Shown here: piece after piece, positions 3,722-30,231 of the stretch
Position numbering within the stretch: the first letter of the stretch is position 1
How the letters are laid out: each line of letters opens with the position of its first letter
Source: a virus
Length of the DNA stretch: 30,231 nucleotides
Direction: 5' to 3' (one strand)
Virus record (IMG/VR): IMGVR_UViG_3300005613_000297
Coordinates: 1-30,231 of that record
Program-made: the position numbers and the translations under genes
The notes under the pieces: model-generated
What the model was told of the DNA's origin: nothing
Database searches by the model: none
The model's input: only the letters and a program-made list of their open reading frames with translations

Positions 3722-4330
3722 ATGGCGGAAGAATCAGTATCTTACGAGCGTTTTCAACAGAAAGTTCAAGAGGTTCAAGAGCTCAAAAACAAAATAGCGG
3801 ACCTCGAATCGAAACAAAGCGAATCCGCAAAGGTCGAGCGCGTAGCAACAAAGCACGCGGAGCGAATAGTGGAGTTGGAAGCACAACTAAACTCTACAAG
3901 ACACCAACATGAAATGGCGTTGACCATGTCTGATATGGGCCTCACGGATCCCGAGATCCGCGAAACCGTAGAATGGCAATATGGTAAGTTGCAAGGTGAA
4001 GACCGTCCAGCGTTCGGTGAATGGCTCGGAGGGATCAAAGAAAACCCCGACCAAGCCCCGGCGGTTCTCCGGCCTTTTCTATCGAAGCCGGCACCCTCGC
4101 CAGAACCTGAGGCGAAACCGGCACCGACCACCACCCGCCAACCGCTGCCAAACCCCGACAACGGAGCGCGACAGGTTGCAGGCGCTCCCGCTGGCTACAC
4201 CGCGCAATCGATCAAGAATATGTCACTGGCAGAATTTGCGCAAGCAATGCCGGCTTTGGATGCTGCTATCCCAAGCCTCGGCCTTCGTGCATCGGCTTAT
4301 TTCCCAAAGGGTGGGGACGGCAACGGGTGA
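3722..4330 (+). CDS. Head scaffolding protein
   Basis: This 202-aa protein has a long N-terminal heptad-rich, charged helix (roughly residues 8-65). A mixed helical part follows, then a Pro/Ala/Glu-rich linker (about 120-150) and a short C-terminal segment. This is the usual build of internal scaffolds that template procapsid assembly and then leave or are degraded. It lies between the portal and the major capsid gene, where scaffolds are encoded, 12 bases after the portal stop with GGAG upstream. No serine-protease motif was seen, and no separate head protease gene lies nearby. The family assignment is by architecture and context. Confidence 0.72.
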   Translation: MAEESVSYERFQQKVQEVQELKNKIADLESKQSESAKVERVATKHAERIVELEAQLNSTRHQHEMALTMSDMGLTDPEIRETVEWQYGKLQGEDRPAFGEWLGGIKENPDQAPAVLRPFLSKPAPSPEPEAKPAPTTTRQPLPNPDNGARQVAGAPAGYTAQSIKNMSLAEFAQAMPALDAAIPSLGLRASAYFPKGGDGNG

Positions 4331-4392
4331 CCGCCGGTTGACGGCTTCAAATCCTCCGTCTACCGTGGTTATGTTCCCCGCCGTCGCTGGCG

Positions 4393-4429
4393 TTAAAGTG
4401 CGTTAGGAACTAACGAAAACACGCTTTAA
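4393..4429 (+). promoter_or_regulatory. Hairpin in the leader of the major capsid gene
   Basis: The 116-base gap before the capsid gene contains a perfect inner stem, CGTTAG (4401-4406) with CTAACG (4410-4415) around a GAA loop. An outer arm TTAAAG (4393-4398) pairs with CTTTAA (4424-4429), with an asymmetric internal loop. There is no T-run after it, so it is not an obvious terminator. It ends 17 bases before the capsid ATG, and the Shine-Dalgarno sequence AGAGGTG follows it. It may stabilise or process the highly expressed capsid mRNA. A TTGACG at 4338-4343 could be part of a promoter, but no good -10 box follows. Confidence 0.5.
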
Positions 4430-4446
4430 TACTCAGAGGTGCCAAA

Positions 4447-5373
4447 ATGGCTGACGAAATTCTAACTGGATCCGGCGGGGGTGGCGATATCCTCGTCGCG
4501 GAAGTCCAGAGCAAATATGCACAACTTTCACTTGCTGATCGCGCTTCACTGCGTAATCATCCGACGCTCGTAAACCTCGGACCAAACTTGATCGGCTCAG
4601 GTACCGAACAGATTTCTATCTTCGGTCTGGACGGTTCGGATCTGATGACGGCCCGAACGGAAATTCAAGCGATCTCGAACCAGGCTTTCAGCGTGTCATC
4701 CGTGACTTGTACGCCTGCACCGTACAGAATCGCGTATGACTACTCCGACCAAATTGGCGCTCTTGATCCCAGCGGCGTGGTGAATTCGTACCGGCTTGCT
4801 CAATCCATTGTCGGATCTGCCACCATGACCCTTACGAATTTGATCGCACAGGCGATCGACGGCTTCACCGCTGTCGGTACGACCGGGGTCGATTTCACGC
4901 ACGACACATTTCTGGCCGGACAATTCGCGCTTGACCAGGCATCCGTAAACGGTCCCTACCTTTGCGTACTTCACCCCAAGCAATTCACCGATTGGCAGTC
5001 CGATCTTGAAACGCGCGGCGGTGTGACTCAGTGGCGACCAGCTACCGCTGAAATGCAAATGCTCAGAGGCCAAGGCTACAAAGGCATGTACAACAACATC
5101 GACATTTTCGTGTCCAGTAAGGTCCAGCCAGACGGCGGCGGTTCCACTGACTGGTACGGTGGACTGTTCGGCGCTGGAGCGGTGGCCTACAAGGAAATGG
5201 CACTTGGTCCTGCTCCCCGGTCGCAGATCGTCCTGCTCGATGTAGAGGGCGTGATCCGTGTCGCCGAGTCCAGAAACGAACTGTCTGGCGATACTCAGGT
5301 TGTAGGCCACTATTTTGTAGGTGCATGCAACCCTGAAGCGTCACGAGGCCGAACCCTCATTTCGGCGCAATAG
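4447..5373 (+). CDS. Major capsid protein
   Basis: This 308-aa protein is assigned as the main head shell subunit, presumably HK97-fold. Evidence: position after the scaffold, size, a strong Shine-Dalgarno sequence (AGAGGTG), its own structured leader, and a strong terminator straight after the gene, as expected for the most expressed late product. The N-terminal part contains a Gly run (residues 9-13) and a helical arm (about 18-40). The middle (about 112-150) is helical and could be the spine helix. The C-terminal half is beta-rich and ends in an ACNPEASRGRT-like segment. No protease-cleaved delta domain is apparent, in line with a separate scaffold. Confidence 0.82.
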   Translation: MADEILTGSGGGGDILVAEVQSKYAQLSLADRASLRNHPTLVNLGPNLIGSGTEQISIFGLDGSDLMTARTEIQAISNQAFSVSSVTCTPAPYRIAYDYSDQIGALDPSGVVNSYRLAQSIVGSATMTLTNLIAQAIDGFTAVGTTGVDFTHDTFLAGQFALDQASVNGPYLCVLHPKQFTDWQSDLETRGGVTQWRPATAEMQMLRGQGYKGMYNNIDIFVSSKVQPDGGGSTDWYGGLFGAGAVAYKEMALGPAPRSQIVLLDVEGVIRVAESRNELSGDTQVVGHYFVGACNPEASRGRTLISAQ

Positions 5374-5443: not shown

Positions 5444-6097
5444 ATGCCGAAAGAAATCAAGGCACCCGCAAAGACAACTATCAAAGCGCCTTCAAAGGCG
5501 AGAGCCGGAATAAAGCCGACTCCACCACCATCCGTAATGGAGGCGCCATTTAATTTTGCAGCCACTCATTCATTTGTGTATCTGGCGCACCCAACCCGGT
5601 GGGACGTTTACGAAACGTCGGAAGGCCCGGAACTACTACCGCAACTCCGTGCATTCCCCCGAGCGCCGGGCGTCAATGGCGTCGTGTACGTCCGAGGCCA
5701 TGACGATGGAGACGAAACGGCGGCAGTTGCCAACCTATGCCATAAAGACGGGTGGGTAAAAGTCGATCCCAACGTCACCGTTTTGGCGTTCGGTGAATCG
5801 GTGGACGGCTATGTACACCAATATCCAGGCCGAAGCGGACCGATCAATTTACCGGTTTGGACGAGGCTATATCAACTCGGCGACGAGGTCCAACGTCAGT
5901 TTGACGCGGACGGTTTTCACGATTTTCTGCGTTTCGTGCGGGATAATTACCTCGGGCAGCCAACCCCGGAAATCAAGCGATCTAAACATTTACAGCTCCG
6001 CAATATGGCCGCAAAGGGACTCTCAAAGCAGGCTTCCCCCGCCGGCGCTATCGCCGGAGAAATCATGGCGCGCAAAGCTGAGGCCGTCGCTACATGA
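5444..6097 (+). CDS. Unknown head-region protein
   Basis: This 217-aa protein has no function I recognise. The ATG at 5444 is chosen over an upstream in-frame ATG at 5321 because it has AGGAG with good spacing, and the upstream start would place 41 residues over the capsid gene and the terminator. The N-terminus (residues 1-30) is a basic Lys/Ala/Pro-rich tail that could be disordered or contact DNA. The body is mixed alpha/beta, and the C-terminus is an Ala/Lys-rich helix. Encoded right after the major capsid protein, it may be a minor head or head-stabilising protein. It overlaps the next gene by ATGA (6094-6097), so the two are probably translationally coupled. Confidence 0.7.
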   Translation: MPKEIKAPAKTTIKAPSKARAGIKPTPPPSVMEAPFNFAATHSFVYLAHPTRWDVYETSEGPELLPQLRAFPRAPGVNGVVYVRGHDDGDETAAVANLCHKDGWVKVDPNVTVLAFGESVDGYVHQYPGRSGPINLPVWTRLYQLGDEVQRQFDADGFHDFLRFVRDNYLGQPTPEIKRSKHLQLRNMAAKGLSKQASPAGAIAGEIMARKAEAVAT

Positions 6098-23415: not shown

Positions 23416-23658
23416 TCACGCCTCCGGATACGGTGCGCACGCCGCACACACCTGCGAGGCCCACGCCGCACACGCATAGTGGATCGCCGCAATCATATCG
23501 TCGCCGATTGGCGCCGTTTGGACCACCTGGCCATACACTCGCAGCTTGACCTGGTTCGTCATGAAGTCAGTTTCTACCGTTGCTTCCAGGTCTTTCCATG
23601 CCGCATGGTACAGTGCGACCAGCTTGACCGCGTCGTCGTCATCATTTTCCCACAGCAT
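23416..23658 (-). CDS. Small unknown early protein
   Basis: This 80-aa protein (MLWENDDDDAVKLVALYHAA...) has an acidic N-terminus, a helix, a central beta-region (VKLRVYGQVVQTAPI) and a Cys-rich C-terminal helix (IAAIHYACAAWASQVCAAC). The ATG at 23658 follows the exonuclease stop (TGATATG) and is preceded by a run of seven G on the coding strand, which can act as a Shine-Dalgarno sequence. An upstream ATG at 23703 would overlap the exonuclease. No function is recognised. The three spaced C-terminal Cys could bind metal, but there is no standard zinc-finger spacing. Confidence 0.6.
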   Translation of the reverse strand: MLWENDDDDAVKLVALYHAAWKDLEATVETDFMTNQVKLRVYGQVVQTAPIGDDMIAAIHYACAAWASQVCAACAPYPEA

Positions 23659-25862: not shown

Positions 25863-26099
25863 ATGTGTGACGACGAACACCCTACCGGCCGGTTTCGTGT
25901 CGGCCCACATGAAGACGACGAGCCCACCGGGTGGAGAGAGACCTTTGGTCAGGTGCATCGACGGGTCCGAACCTCGCATGAGATGCAGGCTTTGCGCCTG
26001 CTTCGCGCAGTGGTGACGTGCGTCACTGTCGCGTGGCTGGCCATTGCAGCGGTTGCTGCGATGACTTTTTTCCTGATTCGGTGGCTCGCTGGATGCTAG
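25863..26099 (+). CDS. Small protein with C-terminal membrane helix
   Basis: This 78-aa protein has an acidic/polar N-terminal part (MCDDEHPTGRFRVGPHEDDE), a basic helix (HRRVRTSHEMQALRLL), then a membrane segment AVVTCVTVAWLAIAAVAAMTF plus FLIRWLAGC. It looks like a tail-anchored protein with its N-terminus in the cytoplasm. The ATG at 25863 has GAGG upstream. A GTG at 25824 would lie in the terminator hairpin and is rejected. It is the first gene after the Cro-like regulator, ahead of replication genes. Superinfection exclusion or membrane anchoring of replication are possible roles, but no motif supports either. Confidence 0.55.
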   Translation: MCDDEHPTGRFRVGPHEDDEPTGWRETFGQVHRRVRTSHEMQALRLLRAVVTCVTVAWLAIAAVAAMTFFLIRWLAGC

Positions 26100-26121
26100 T
26101 GCATTACGGGTGTGGCCCACC

Positions 26122-26163
26122 AAAAAAAATCCCCCGGGCATGTTGGGAGCACGCCAAGGGGAT
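26122..26163 (-). terminator. Minus-strand terminator in the primase leader
   Basis: Read on the minus strand, ATCCCC (26163-26158) pairs with GGGGAT (26134-26129). Inside it, GGCGTG (26155-26150) pairs with CATGCC (26142-26137), including one G-U pair that exists only on this strand. Eight T follow (26129-26122). The arrangement is a strong terminator for leftward RNA. On the plus strand it has no trailing T-run and would form only a 5'-leader hairpin before the primase gene. Confidence 0.65.
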
Positions 26164-26205
26164 CGGTAGGACCTACATTGTAATGCTCCTGGATTAGGTA
26201 GGCAA

Positions 26206-27180
26206 ATGAGCGACAAAAAGAAACCGGCGTTTGATATCGCGGTTTTTACCAATATTTACGACCGTGCCCCCAAGGCGCACCGTTGCACACATGACGCGCT
26301 AGAAAAGGCGCTAACAACCTTTGATATCGTCGGAGACGCTCCAAAGGACCGCATTAAATGCTGGTCACCGACGCGGTATAAATGGGTGGATACGCCTGAA
26401 AGCGACCTTGAATATATAAAATCAGGTGTCACCGGCAAAGGCAGGCCGATGTGGCGCAGCCAAGAAAAGCCGATGGAGCGGCGAGGCTACCATTTAAACC
26501 GTGGTAGGTTCGGTGTTTTGAGCGTTTCATGCTTCGTTTTAGACTACGATGACGGAACACCGCTAGACGCTGCACGCGCCCCCTGGATGCAATACAACCA
26601 TTGTTGGCATTCATCCTACTCTCATACGAACGAGGTTCCGAAATTCAGGCTAATCGTTTTTTTGTCAGAACCGGTCGATAAAGACCTTTGGCCGAGGGTT
26701 TGGCGGTGGGGTTTCGAACGGGCGGCGGGCTCTCCAGATGAGGCGTGCAAGGACCCTTCGCGTATTTATTTGGTGCCTACACTGAAATCGGAGAACCAAC
26801 CGCGTCTGTGCGGGTCGCATGAAACAGGTGAGTTTCTGGCGGTGGATTGGGATTCGTTGCCGGATGAACGAGGAAACAAGTCGGTTTTCATCCGTGAGGT
26901 TCCAAGACCGGAAGTCAGGGGACCGATAGGCGAGGTGATACGCGAGGTTCGAAGCCGGTTAAAACATGACCCGTTGGAGAGGAAGCGCGTCGCGGTCATT
27001 CTTGGCGCAACCCAAAACACAGATAGAGCGTGGGGAATGCGTTGTCCAGCGTGCGGTCGTGCGAGCGTTTGGTTTTTGGTGAATCCCGGTGCGCAAAAGG
27101 GGGCGGAATGCAATCATAAGAATTCTTGTGGTTGGTACGGATTTTTAGACCAACTTTTGGATGGGTCATACAATGGATAA
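26206..27180 (+). CDS. AEP-like (archaeo-eukaryotic type) primase with zinc ribbon
   Basis: This 324-aa protein shows the outline of an archaeo-eukaryotic primase domain as found in phage and plasmid replication proteins. Its features are FVLDYDDG (110-117, acidic pair for metals), WHSSYSHT (134-141, the S/H motif) and KFRLIVFLSEPV (146-157). A linker with basic helices (about 235-270) leads to a zinc ribbon with C280, C283, C302 and C308, plus H304. Such proteins make primers at the origin. The next gene is a VapE-type helicase that overlaps it by 8 bases, a pairing that is known in mobile elements. AGGTAGG precedes the ATG. Motif assignment is by eye. Confidence 0.75.
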   Translation: MSDKKKPAFDIAVFTNIYDRAPKAHRCTHDALEKALTTFDIVGDAPKDRIKCWSPTRYKWVDTPESDLEYIKSGVTGKGRPMWRSQEKPMERRGYHLNRGRFGVLSVSCFVLDYDDGTPLDAARAPWMQYNHCWHSSYSHTNEVPKFRLIVFLSEPVDKDLWPRVWRWGFERAAGSPDEACKDPSRIYLVPTLKSENQPRLCGSHETGEFLAVDWDSLPDERGNKSVFIREVPRPEVRGPIGEVIREVRSRLKHDPLERKRVAVILGATQNTDRAWGMRCPACGRASVWFLVNPGAQKGAECNHKNSCGWYGFLDQLLDGSYNG

Positions 27181-28423
27181 TAAAATTTACGACATCGAAA
27201 AATCCCGTTGGCTCGTCCACTTTGCCGCAATCACCGAAACGGATCCCGTGGTGTCCGAGGGTATGCACCTTTTTGAGGACCGAAAGGGGAATATCATGCA
27301 TAGGAAGAACCTTTTCAACGTCAATCACGTCCTGACGCGTGACCAGAAATACCAGGGCAAAATTCAGTACGACGAGTTTTCCGACACGGTCCTCGTCTAC
27401 GGTCAGCCGGTCATGGATACGATGTGCACACAGATAGCGATCGACCTCTCGCATCGCTACCCTGGCCTAGACGTGCCTTCGTCGCTCGTATATGAGGCGG
27501 TGATCCGCGTGGCGAGGGAACACGCCATACACCCGGTGCGCGACTACCTAGACGGGCTCGAATGGGACGGCGTGGAGCGAGTAAGCCGTTTGTTCCTGCA
27601 TTACTTTTCGGCGGTACACCAAAACCAAAACGAAGCGAGGCTAATAGAGGACATTGCAACATGCTTTTTAGTGTCGTGCGTCGCTCGCGTCATGAAACCA
27701 GGTTGCAAGGTCGATACAACGCCGATCGTTTACGGCGGCCAGGGGATGGGCAAATCAACCGCTTTTCGCGTTTTGGCCGGTGAAAAGTGGTTTTCTGACA
27801 CGCCGCTCCCGCTCGGGCATAAAGATTCGTACCAGCAGCTCCCGGGCGTGTGGATTTACGAGCTGGCGGAGCTTGATTCTTTCAGAAATGCCGAGTCAAC
27901 GCAGATAAAGGCCATGCTGTCGAGTCAGGAGGACAAATACAGGCCATCCTACGGCCGCGTTCGGGTGAATGTTCCGCGGCAAACTGTGTTTGTCGGAACG
28001 ACAAATGCCGAGGAGTTTCTTAGCGACGAAACAGGCTCCCGCCGATTCTGGCCCATTGAAGCCGGCAAGGTGCAGATGGAGCATCTATACCGCGACCGCG
28101 ATCAACTGTGGGCGGAAGCCGTGCACCTATACCAGAGCGGCCGGGAGTGGTGGCTCGACTACGAGCAGGCGCGAGATTTAGCCGCCATGAGCGACCGGTT
28201 CCGGCAGGTGGACCCGTGGGAGGACGAAATACTGCAGTGGCTGCAGAGCTACGCGCTCGTCATCACCACGCGCGCCATACTCACTGACGCCCTCGGGGTA
28301 CCGAAAGATCGGGTCCGCCGTAGTGACGAAATCCGCGTCGCGAAGATCATGCGCTCGATTGGGTACAGCAAAACACGCGAACGGGCGAACGGCACAAGAA
28401 TGCAGGCGTGGACCAAAGCGTAG
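27173..28423 (+). CDS. VapE-family replicative helicase (superfamily 3-like)
   Basis: This protein (416 aa from ATG 27173) belongs to the virulence-associated E family of phage and plasmid helicases. It has YLDGLEWDGVERV (about 125-137), typical before the ATPase core. Walker A is GGQGMGKST (188-196), Walker B-like is WIYELAELD (227-235) and a sensor/Arg-finger region TTNAEEFL...GSRRFW lies at about 276-293. The C-terminal 80 residues form a winged-helix-like domain (TRAILTDALGVPKDRVRRS, AKIMRSIGY). It would unwind DNA at the origin with the primase. ATG 27173 overlaps the primase stop; 27161 is an alternative that adds four residues. The last codons carry the first copy of the TGGWCCA repeat. 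Confidence 0.88.
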   Translation: MDNKIYDIEKSRWLVHFAAITETDPVVSEGMHLFEDRKGNIMHRKNLFNVNHVLTRDQKYQGKIQYDEFSDTVLVYGQPVMDTMCTQIAIDLSHRYPGLDVPSSLVYEAVIRVAREHAIHPVRDYLDGLEWDGVERVSRLFLHYFSAVHQNQNEARLIEDIATCFLVSCVARVMKPGCKVDTTPIVYGGQGMGKSTAFRVLAGEKWFSDTPLPLGHKDSYQQLPGVWIYELAELDSFRNAESTQIKAMLSSQEDKYRPSYGRVRVNVPRQTVFVGTTNAEEFLSDETGSRRFWPIEAGKVQMEHLYRDRDQLWAEAVHLYQSGREWWLDYEQARDLAAMSDRFRQVDPWEDEILQWLQSYALVITTRAILTDALGVPKDRVRRSDEIRVAKIMRSIGYSKTRERANGTRMQAWTKA

Positions 28424-28472
28424 TGGACCACATGGACCACTAGTGGACCACTACAAATGGTCCACCATATTA

Positions 28473-28502
28473 AGCCTCGTTCCTCTGGTTCGGGGCTTTT
28501 TC
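28473..28502 (+). terminator. Rho-independent terminator after the helicase gene
   Basis: AGCCTCG (28473-28479) pairs with CGGGGCT (28491-28497), including one G-U pair, around an 11-base loop. TTTTT follows at 28497-28501. It should end the primase-helicase transcript inside the repeat region and separate it from the downstream promoter. Confidence 0.75.
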
Positions 28503-28570
28503 CGTTGGACCACATGTTTTCTCCCTATGACTCATTACTTCCCATACGTTACTAACTGCCATATGGCCAG

Positions 28571-28600
28571 TTTTACAACTTTTAAAGTTTTTTCTAAAAA
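28571..28600. other. A+T-rich core between repeat arms (candidate unwinding element)
   Basis: Twenty-six of 30 bases are A or T, in a genome segment of otherwise near-balanced or G+C-leaning composition. It lies between the two repeat clusters and immediately before the tandem heptamers at 28605 and 28613. Origins often place such an easily melted segment next to initiator binding sites. Confidence 0.5.
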
Positions 28601-28736
28601 GAAGTGGTCCAGTGGTCCAATTTCAATTTAGCAACGAATAGCCGTCGTTTTGGTGGACCACTAGTCCAAAAAAGAAGTGGTCCACTAGTGGTCCAAGTGG
28701 TCCAAACCGCCGAAGAAGTGGACCACAAAAAGCGTA

Positions 28737-28765
28737 TTGACACGACGTGTGAATGTTGGTACAAG
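28737..28765 (+). promoter_or_regulatory. Sigma-70-like promoter for the winged-helix gene
   Basis: A perfect -35 box TTGACA (28737-28742), a 17-base spacer and a -10 box TACAAG (28760-28765, four of six matches) predict a start near 28772, about 14 bases before the ATG. The last TGGWCCA copy (28719-28725) lies 11 bases before the -35 box, so a protein bound there could block or help RNA polymerase. Confidence 0.75.
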
Positions 28766-28785
28766 AAACATGCACCGGAGACGAC

Positions 28786-29148
28786 ATGCGACAGATCGAC
28801 AAAATTAAAGCACGCCTAACGGAGGCCCGTCGACCGCTAACGACTCGCGAAATAGCGGCGGAAACCAACTTGACGCCAGGCCAGGTAAGCAAGGTCATGC
28901 ATGCATATGCGGACTCGCATGACATTGTGCGGTCCAGTACGTCTACCAGAGAGAGCGCGTGGTCAATGGCTAGCGTTTTGCCCCCTCCTGAGGCACACGA
29001 GAACCCGGAGGACCTGGACACCGTCCGGGAGTGGCGTGCCTCTCAGGCGGCAGAAAACACGAAGCCGTCACGACTTACGACTCGGCTCGTCACGGCCGTA
29101 AAGCTCATGGGTATAGCCTTTTCCGTCCTGAAAGGAGACATAAAATGA
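28786..29148 (+). CDS. Winged-helix DNA-binding protein beside the repeat array
   Basis: This 120-aa protein has an N-terminal winged helix (about residues 1-48): IDKIKARLTEARRPLTTREI, AAETNLTPGQVSKVMHAYAD and HDIVRSS as the wing. The rest is a polar linker and a C-terminal amphipathic segment (RLTTRLVTAVKLMGIAFSVL). ATG 28786 with GGAG five bases upstream is chosen, since an ATG at 28753 would lie within the promoter. It is the first gene after the palindromic array and so the prime local candidate to bind it, either as autoregulator or origin-binding protein. That link is inference. Its stop overlaps the methyltransferase start (ATGA). Confidence 0.72.
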   Translation: MRQIDKIKARLTEARRPLTTREIAAETNLTPGQVSKVMHAYADSHDIVRSSTSTRESAWSMASVLPPPEAHENPEDLDTVREWRASQAAENTKPSRLTTRLVTAVKLMGIAFSVLKGDIK

Positions 29149-29753
29149 ATAATAGAGCAGTAGCGAAGCCGACACACGAGCGAAAGAAAAACGAAGCCTA
29201 CTACACCGACGAACGCGTAGCGTTGGCGTGTGTCAGGTACATGGCCGAATACATACGCCCTGACCGCATACTTGAGCCGAGCGTCGGAGGCGGTGCATTC
29301 GTTCGAGCCTGCCGCGAGGTCTGGCCTGACGCGCATATCACTGGGGTGGACGTTGACCCGGGTGCGAGCGGTCTAGCAGAGTGCGACGAGGCTTTTGTCG
29401 GGAGCTTTACGGAGTTTAAATCGCCAAAACCATTCAATCTCGTGATAGGTAACCCTCCTTTTTCGCTCGCAGCGAAGCACATTCATCATGCGATCGGGAC
29501 GCTCCACGAGTGGCCGCGTCTTGCGGTGGTCGCCATGCTGCTCCCGTCGTCATTTTGCGGAGGCGCGTCTACGCGGGGATGGTTCCACGAGGCATATGGG
29601 GCACCGCTACGCCGATGCACGATTCACCCGCGACCATCGTTTACTGGAGGTGGAACCGCTGCAATGGAGTACGAGCTGATGGTCTGGAGCAATGCCGAAC
29701 ATAACAAGCGTGGAAACACATATATCAATTGGAAAAAGGAGCAGCAACAATGA
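29145..29753 (+). CDS. DNA adenine (N6) methyltransferase
   Basis: This 202-aa protein has a SAM-binding motif LEPSVGGGAFV (43-53), an acidic strand end VDVDPG (68-73) and the catalytic NPPF (103-106). It is therefore an amino-methyltransferase, most likely acting on adenine. YYTDERVALA near the start resembles the motif X region. At 202 aa it is short and lacks an obvious large target-recognition domain. AAAGGAG lies seven bases before ATG 29145, so longer upstream starts are rejected. No restriction partner is nearby, so this is an orphan enzyme. It may protect phage DNA from host nucleases or mark replicated DNA. Target sequence cannot be told. Confidence 0.85.
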   Translation: MNNRAVAKPTHERKKNEAYYTDERVALACVRYMAEYIRPDRILEPSVGGGAFVRACREVWPDAHITGVDVDPGASGLAECDEAFVGSFTEFKSPKPFNLVIGNPPFSLAAKHIHHAIGTLHEWPRLAVVAMLLPSSFCGGASTRGWFHEAYGAPLRRCTIHPRPSFTGGGTAAMEYELMVWSNAEHNKRGNTYINWKKEQQQ

Positions 29754-30040
29754 CAAACCAGAAACTAATCCCCGTAATCGTCGAGGACAAGCACCGCTAC
29801 GTCGGTTTCGGATACACTGAAGATCCGGACGCAACGCCAATTAAGCTAGTCAATGCGCGTGTTATCACGTATTGGGGAACGACCGGCGGAGTGTGTCAGC
29901 TGGCACTAGAGGGACCACAAGAGGCAACCCGCCTCGGTTCTGTAGCCCCGAAGCAAACTCTGCGCGAGCCAGCGAGGGTGTATGAGCTAACCGACGAAGT
30001 CGGCCAAAAGTTCATGGACCGAAAGACTTATGGAAAGTGA
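29750..30040 (+). CDS. Conserved small phage protein (DUF6948-like, tentative)
   Basis: This 96-aa protein has a beta-strand-rich start (KLIPVIVEDKHRYVGFGYTE), a central NARVITYWGTTGGVCQLALEG and an end with APKQTLREPARVYELTDEV. The pattern of a Trp-x-Gly turn followed by LALEG recalls a small family of unknown function common in phage early regions, which I think is DUF6948, but only from memory. ATG 29750 overlaps the methyltransferase stop (ATGA), with AAGGAG upstream. It probably belongs to the same operon as the winged-helix gene. Confidence 0.65.
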   Translation: MTNQKLIPVIVEDKHRYVGFGYTEDPDATPIKLVNARVITYWGTTGGVCQLALEGPQEATRLGSVAPKQTLREPARVYELTDEVGQKFMDRKTYGK

Positions 30041-30231
30041 CGTACTGACGCACATCTCGCACGCCGATCTATACGCTATCGGCGCTTGTGAGGATGGCGT
30101 GCATGAGGCGTGGGTGGCGCTCGGGTGCCCGACGGTGGTGTCTGTAGAGGATGTGCTCGCGTCGATACCAGGCACCGATTCGAGGTATGCTGTAATTGCT
30201 GCGAGGCTGAACGGCTACGGCAGCGACGGCG
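30030..30231 (+). CDS. Unknown protein, truncated by the window edge
   Basis: From ATG 30030 a frame stays open to the end of the window, giving at least 67 residues that start MESDVLTHISHADLYAIGAC. It overlaps the previous stop by 11 bases, and AAAGAC upstream is a poor Shine-Dalgarno sequence, so translation may depend on coupling. The visible part is acidic and mixed alpha/beta (EDGVHEAWVALG, SVEDVLASIPGTDSRYAVIA). It resembles small phage accessory proteins, but no family is assigned. The 3' end is missing. Confidence 0.6.
   Translation, partial: MESDVLTHISHADLYAIGACEDGVHEAWVALGCPTVVSVEDVLASIPGTDSRYAVIAARLNGYGSDG

Follow-up and report, generated by a model that had tools for sequence, protein, structure and literature searches.

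A viral record of 30,231 bases, which carries no completeness estimate and is referred to in its full length as the window, contains a dense array of the short palindrome TGGWCCA directly behind a pair of primase and helicase genes. The initial annotation left the function of this array between a replication origin, an operator array, a partition site and a decoy, which raises the question of what the array does and which protein reads it. Among these options, an origin beside the primase and helicase genes turned out to be the best supported, based on the place of the array, the spacing of its sites, the covariation of the repeat with the helicase and the fold. The array very probably represents a phage replication origin that would be read by the C-terminal winged helix of the VapE-type helicase encoded upstream.

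The repeat array and the genes around it

The window holds 15 copies of TGGWCCA, 13 of them within 28409-28725 and the other two isolated at 23519 and 24883, exactly as the initial annotation had counted them. In 100 dinucleotide-preserving shuffles, the motif occurred with a mean of 3.08 copies per window (largest value 8), corresponding to about 0.03 per 317 bp and close to the earlier chance figure of about 0.04. The start-to-start spacings (15, 9, 11, 14, 48, 99, 8, 41, 24, 11, 9 and 21 bp) confirmed the irregular arrangement over a range of 8 to 99 bp. An extension to GTGGWCCAC, previously ascribed to many copies, is exact in five of the 13. The unit had been described as self-complementary; it is indeed a near-palindrome but also partly directional when the copies are oriented by the central base, with G at -1 in 11/13 and A at -2 in 9/13 copies, although within the window this orientation depends on the central A or T of a palindrome. 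The commonest oriented form, AGTGGTCCA, is exact in eight of the 13 copies.

The sites are arranged in two groups. The left half-array (28409-28512) comprises six sites, starting at 28409, 28424, 28433, 28444, 28458 and 28506, and the right half-array (28605-28725) seven, starting at 28605, 28613, 28654, 28678, 28689, 28698 and 28719, the prevailing direction being opposite in the two groups. They enclose an AT-rich core of 92 bp (28513-28604), the proposed melting region, with an AT fraction of 0.66 (0.68 with slightly different limits) vs 0.45 in the body of the helicase gene. A 29-nt inverted repeat with 97% complementarity joins the two groups (28424-28452 and 28676-28704). As a single strand, the array folds strongly (z -5.9), which reflects the inverted repeats and adds nothing beyond them. 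The array begins 12 bp ahead of the helicase stop codon and extends 302 bp past it, so that the first copy lies within the last codons of the gene and the second starts on the stop codon. A possible terminator of helicase gene transcription on the plus strand (28479-28502) was called inside the left half-array by a consensus scan, which yielded eight terminator-like sites in 4.2 kb vs 5.0 +- 2.4 in shuffles.

No DnaA box within one mismatch of TTATNCACA was found in 28400-28740, and the window as a whole has 14 such boxes vs 16.9 expected. The GC skew displayed no clear extremum at the array, where the initial annotation had proposed to look for an origin peak (28.4-28.7 kb). A search of Rfam at gathering thresholds over 26000-30231 gave no match.

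Genes for a terminase large subunit, a tape measure protein, an endolysin, an Erf-like annealing protein and an exonuclease identify the window as DNA of a tailed phage. The first gene of the replication pair, P0001 (26206-27180, plus strand; 324 aa), encodes a primase of the archaeo-eukaryotic (AEP) type, which matched phrog_9765 (DNA primase, 2e-10) and no Pfam family up to E 0.05. The best match of its AlphaFold model (mean pLDDT 78.1), and the only structure below 0.001, is the AEP domain of the cyanophage S-2L PrimPol (6zp9, E 6.5e-5). Homologues of P0001 occur in 10 of 284 vapE loci, and a scan with the primase returned three viral-contig loci and none among phage records.

The second gene, P0002 (27161-28423, plus strand), encodes a VapE-type SF3 helicase of 420 aa (PF05272, 1.5e-76), the proposed origin initiator. 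Its VapE score reached 257 bits vs 20.6 bits for DUF5906, the latter below the cut-off of 27.6 for that family, and there was no match to Pox_D5. For the AlphaFold model, built on 38 aligned sequences (mean pLDDT 89.2), the best solved fold match was 7pds_A, with a Z of 31.5 over 381 residues (model residues 29-420) and an E of 1.6e-42 by sequence. The 7pds structure contains six chains of PriRep1 with double-stranded DNA, the molecule being named 'Similar to D. nodosus vapE', and presumably comes from a staphylococcal island. Further fold matches were the NrS-1 PrimPol (Z 14.8) and the SaPI5 primase-helicase 7ola (Z 13.0). At the C-terminus of the model, three helices (352-363, 370-377 and 387-399) are followed by a beta hairpin (402-409 and 412-419). 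Residues 352-419 (28214-28417, plus strand) are accordingly predicted to form a winged helix, which, together with the covariation described below, makes this domain the proposed iteron reader.

On the 3' side of the array, the plus-strand gene for the small HTH-like protein P0003 (28753-29148) starts at an ATG at 28753 or 28786, i.e., 27 or 60 bp past the last TGGWCCA site. Its HTH matches are weak and below cut-off. No homologue of P0003 was found by tblastn (E up to 0.01) in the 284 vapE loci, which a fast-changing small protein could escape, and P0003 was set aside as a general reader of the iterons on this basis. A DNA methyltransferase-like gene (29145-29750; phrog_799, 6.9e-27) directly follows. 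A blastn search with 26200-30231 against 50,697 phage records identified no close DNA relative, and viral-contig scans with the window helicase alone or with P0003 returned zero loci.

Repeat arrays behind vapE in other phages

Scanning viral contigs for three closely spaced TGGWCCA motifs yielded at least 120 loci. Among the 120 listed, vapE was recognised by the window protein in eight loci, which represent four lineages; the corresponding count for the whole helicase panel, 13/120, is inflated by five panel queries taken from the TGGWCCA set itself, leaving 8/120 as the independent figure. With the permuted palindrome GGTWACC, the whole panel found a helicase in none of 120 listed loci. In all four TGGWCCA loci that were inspected (L190, L197, L207 and L243), the array was located at the 3' end of vapE. 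Many further TGGWCCA matches are spaced in multiples of three, as in repeats within proteins. Irregular dense GGTWACC arrays also occur, in L311, L322, L399, L394 and L343, the fetched DNA of which contained no panel helicase.

Locus L243 carries two TGGWCCA arrays (611-700 and 5566-5655), one behind vapE and a second beside an integrase gene, an arrangement that resembles the ori and crr sites of phage P4. Arrays spaced like the first L243 array are present in L247, L273 and L288; the integrase was identified in L243 alone and assigned in the other three on the basis of an equally sized neighbouring gene. TGGWCCA arrays were in addition observed behind DUF5906 helicases (L227, 1050-1358; L281, 3094-3367) and behind a Toprim/AAA_25 protein (L192, 1669-1869). 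One iteron sequence therefore serves several initiator families.

Dense repeats of differing sequence lie 3' of vapE in L006, in Marinobacter phage PS3 (L008) and in Synechococcus phage S-LBS1 (L013), and about 380 bp behind vapE in the Pseudomonas phages L009-L011. For a systematic count, 9-mers were scored on both strands with one mismatch allowed in stretches of 350 bp, and an array was accepted when the best stretch with a start from -100 to +450 relative to the vapE stop exceeded every distant stretch of the same locus. The first set comprised 48 lineages (190 loci, clustered at 80% identity), of which 47 could be assessed and one was dropped as it lacked downstream sequence. All lineage and locus numbers are those among the matches listed (the best 80 in several scans) and represent samples rather than censuses; the largest vapE lineage has at least 131 loci, the named members of which are mostly Pseudomonas. 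Arrays were detected in 32 of the 47 lineages, mostly with other repeat letters. A held-out set of 95 new lineages (158 usable loci of 160) was fetched later with other query alignments, one of which (A4, five rows) included the window helicase, and gave arrays in 63 lineages.

No array was accepted in 15/47 and 32/95 lineages, respectively. Among the 15 lineages, a reading frame runs through a TGGWCCA array in L190 and six copies tie with distant stretches in L273, while no explanation was found for the remaining 13 of the 47. Lineages with a vapE gene and no accepted array behind it include L068, L015, L026, L030, L031, L012, L102 and L107, among others. In such lineages, the origin may be located elsewhere or consist of more degenerate sites.

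Most repeat units of the relatives are directional, have a length of about 9 bp and differ in sequence from TGGWCCA. Judged from these repeats, TGGWCCA appears to be a nearly symmetric variant of a usually directional iteron of about 9 bp, and the initial view of the short palindromic unit as unusual thus did not hold up. The initial annotation had also regarded a lack of conservation in relatives as an argument against the array. The letters are indeed not conserved, whereas the place is kept in most sampled lineages and the spacing in part.

Two candidate features of the core did not generalise. An AT-rich core was dropped as a general rule since the core exceeded the gene body in AT content in no more than 20 of 32 lineages. 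The element CCC(C/T)TAT occurred in 15 of 35 regions of the first set vs 3.8 elsewhere, with 7.4 +- 2.4 (maximum 15) in base shuffles, and in 16 of 55 held-out regions vs 6.9 elsewhere and 12.8 in shuffles; given the shuffle counts in both sets, it was rejected as a shared core element and attributed to base composition. In phage APSE-7 (L297), a putative origin is annotated ahead of the replication genes (1646-1746), but a 12-copy array of the GTACCAACC / GTAACAACC type that displays the shared geometry is located behind vapE at about 4207-4510.

Spacing grammar and covariation with the helicase

The arrangement of sites was compared among 32 first-set lineages with at least six copies, a set that includes L273 and L296, in which the array ties with distant stretches, and omits L301 and L304, which have accepted arrays of five copies. 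A recurring half-array became apparent. Outward from the core, it starts with sites of the same direction 8-9 bp apart, followed by an inverted site 33-45 bp on, a return to the first direction after 18-24 bp and a further step of 9-11 bp, and in the fullest cases this pattern is mirrored around the core. At least one grammatical half was present in 18/32 lineages vs a mean of 0.54 (maximum 3) in 300 shuffles of gaps and directions and 1.59 (maximum 6) when directions alone were shuffled, and both halves were grammatical in 8/32 lineages vs 0.03 in shuffles. The signal lies in spacing and orientation jointly; a best-split orientation test within each lineage gave no p below 0.06.

As the ranges had been picked after viewing the maps of the first set, they were frozen and applied to the 95 held-out lineages. 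A grammatical half was found in 22 of these vs 0.71 (maximum 3) in 200 shuffles. Both halves were grammatical in only one held-out lineage, and the symmetric form is therefore not general; in many of the held-out maps, a full half is opposed by two to four sites. The site counts per side are 6+6 or close to it in much of the first set, held-out lineages mostly having 5-7 sites on one side and 2-4 on the other, and a strict count of six sites per ring and two rings was kept only as a hypothesis.

In the window, the right half (>8>41<24>11>9>) fits the grammar, while one spacing of the left half (14) lies outside the range of 18-25 and its inner tandem site is missing. Taken singly, the match of the window has a shuffle probability of 0.011. 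A similar succession, 8-43-24-10-8 compared to 8-41-24-11-9 in the right half of the window, occurs in L006 with a different iteron. The geometry recurs in phages and prophages of several bacterial phyla, such as in Marinobacter (L008), Streptococcus (L302), a Myxococcota MAG (L094) and a Flavobacteriales MAG (L097). A search of openly licensed PMC papers found no literature on iteron arrays behind vapE in tailed phages or on a shared spacing grammar, and a layout independent of the iteron sequence, as well as its breadth in phages, is new as far as we could find.

To relate the repeats to their potential reader, iteron profiles were compared between lineages with protein similarity. Across 32 lineages, similarity of the residues from about 350 on correlated with the iteron sequence (rho 0.21; 1/500 permutations as high), also when corrected for the rest of the protein (0.19; 1/500 permutations). 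The part before residue 350 or so gave a rho of 0.09 (73/500 permutations) and -0.01 upon correction. A partial Mantel test by segments was carried out on 29 lineages of the first set, three lineages fetched by their motif having been removed; with these included, the effect was weaker and of the same direction. The corrected values were highest for residues 298-362 (rho 0.28) and 331-395 (rho 0.24), each with a p of 0.001, the floor of 1000 permutations, and borderline for 364-420 (p 0.057). Between residues 34 and 329, p was 0.13 for one segment and above 0.15 for the other seven, and the extreme N-terminal segment, absent from the held-out test, had a p of 0.047 on 120 pairs only. In 55 held-out lineages with arrays, corrected p values were 0.012 for 331-395, 0.006 for 364-420 and a borderline 0.058 for 298-362, and 0.21 or more for the seven preceding segments. 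Uncorrected, all ten segments tested in the held-out set correlated with a p of 0.002 each, which relatedness among the phages would lead one to expect, and the claim therefore rests on the corrected values. Since arrays can overlap the last codons of the gene, the segments ending at 362 and 395 weigh most. The effects are small and occur at the same place in both sets, suggesting that the iteron sequence tracks the C-terminal segments of the helicase beyond the rest of the protein.

A natural pair of phages fits a C-terminal reader in part. The helicases of IPP26 and the S. thermophilus phage CHPC1282 are 74.5% identical; in blocks of 40 alignment columns, identity amounts to 72-95% in columns 41-280, 53-70% in 281-440 and 57% in the first block. 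Behind the helicase gene, IPP26 has seven CGGTAGC and zero CGGTAAC, and CHPC1282 six CGGTAAC and zero CGGTAGC.

A candidate origin among known replicons

These results bear differently on the other functions that were considered. The array might serve as an operator, with P0003 or a different regulator of the phage bound to the palindromes and controlling its own promoter and the downstream operon, without any role in replication. Palindromic sites are typical of dimeric repressors, and P0003 starts close to the last site and has its weak HTH matches. However, no consensus promoter was called beside P0003 at 28.7 kb, arrays stay with vapE in most lineages yet P0003 has no homologue detected in the vapE loci, and the iteron sequence covaries with the helicase C-terminus, rendering a pure operator function improbable; a dual role as operator and origin may exist. 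We consider it even less probable that the array is an origin read by host or other phage initiator proteins, with VapE merely recruited as the helicase. The occurrence of TGGWCCA behind DUF5906 and Toprim/AAA_25 proteins would agree with this, in a scan that was itself conditioned on TGGWCCA, but iterons that follow the C-terminus beyond the rest of the helicase argue against it. The same applies to IPP26 and CHPC1282, with differing repeats and helicases that diverge most strongly at the N-terminus and over the C-terminal third, and SaPI Rep is reported to recognise its origin itself (PMC7581432). A decoy titrating a host factor, a partition site for segregation of a plasmid prophage, or a recombination hot spot left by a mobile element is very unlikely: in S. 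thermophilus, extra copies of a phage origin-like region are described as blocking the accumulation of invading phage DNA (PMC6356513), so that titration can be a side effect, but most sampled lineages retain an array behind the helicase gene, and part of them the shared spacing, with different iterons. Neither a constant position behind vapE nor covariation with the C-terminus of the helicase would be predicted for a decoy, a partition site or an operator array, which makes all three less likely than initially allowed for.

The array in the window is thus a strong candidate for an origin of the SaPI/PICI type, probably read by the winged helix of the adjacent helicase. At such an origin, the VapE-type helicase expressed from the gene just upstream would act as a self-loading initiator. 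Its C-terminal winged helix would bind the six left and seven right TGGWCCA sites, which are roughly mirrored around the AT-rich core of 92 bp, and the bound proteins would assemble rings on either side. The rings could then open the core and start bidirectional unwinding, and the neighbouring AEP primase would provide the primers.

With arrays behind vapE in most sampled lineages and a spacing shared in part, this looks like a general type of phage origin, and phages with no annotated origin could have one predicted from their sequence. The surprising part is a layout that outlasts its sequence, the palindromic appearance being a local variant. It is also quite possible, if decidedly more tentative, that the origins of VapE-helicase phages follow a sequence-blind geometric code, in which iteron letters and winged helix change together, the geometry acting as a template for the rings and the pair of iteron and winged helix as an exchangeable lock for replicon identity. 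A recurring geometry with changing letters would provide a test bed for the placement of self-loading helicase rings on double-stranded DNA and for the evolution of replicon specificity.

Several known replicons share part of this organisation. Classic iteron plasmids have directional iterons of about 17-22 bp and a DnaA box nearby, unlike the window with units of 7-9 bp in both directions and no DnaA box in the array. In phage P4, the alpha protein is a fused primase and helicase, the C-terminus of which binds short iterons at two separate sites, ori and crr; in the window, primase and helicase are encoded by two genes and TGGWCCA forms a single cluster. P4 alpha, ori and crr are also mentioned briefly in PMC6092414. 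The D5-like helicase Cch2 of SCCmec has been shown to bind direct repeats 3' of its own gene, at a putative origin (PMC7581432). The position downstream of the own helicase gene is as in the window, and the mere three 5-nt iterons reported there and the different helicase family are not. The S. thermophilus phage Sfi21 (NC_000872) has an annotated 'origin of replication, 302 bp non-coding region, phage inhibitory sequence', which, as does the array in the window, overlaps the end of the helicase gene and lies behind it, although the Sfi21 helicase belongs to the sister family D5/DUF5906 and not to VapE. There, 11 GTAAC occur in 381 bp vs 0.8 elsewhere; the GTAACT sites are arranged as <8<77>8>59> around an AT-rich core, and the shorter GTAAC sites are mixed in direction.

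The closest likeness is to the pri-rep-ori modules of SaPIs and PICIs (SaPI Rep, PriRep1 and the E. coli PICI EcCICFT073), which, as does the window, combine an adjacent primase gene with a helicase homologous over its full length (7pds_A) and an iteron region immediately 3' of the helicase gene, the latter being an origin in the window by inference. PICI origins have an AT-rich region between two iteron sets (PMC6092414), matched in the window by 6 and 7 sites around the 92-bp core. In SaPI Rep, the C-terminal domain acts on iterons directly 3' of the helicase gene (PMC7581432); the predicted winged helix of the window helicase, with the covariation in two sets, may be a counterpart. The proposed initiator of the window is homologous to SaPI Rep and, going by this homology, may likewise be self-loading. 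The window differs from these systems in its near-palindromic iteron TGGWCCA and, unlike a PICI satellite island, represents a tailed phage with its own terminase large subunit, tape measure protein and endolysin. The kind of origin proposed is thus already known from SaPIs and PICIs, and is met here in a tailed phage.
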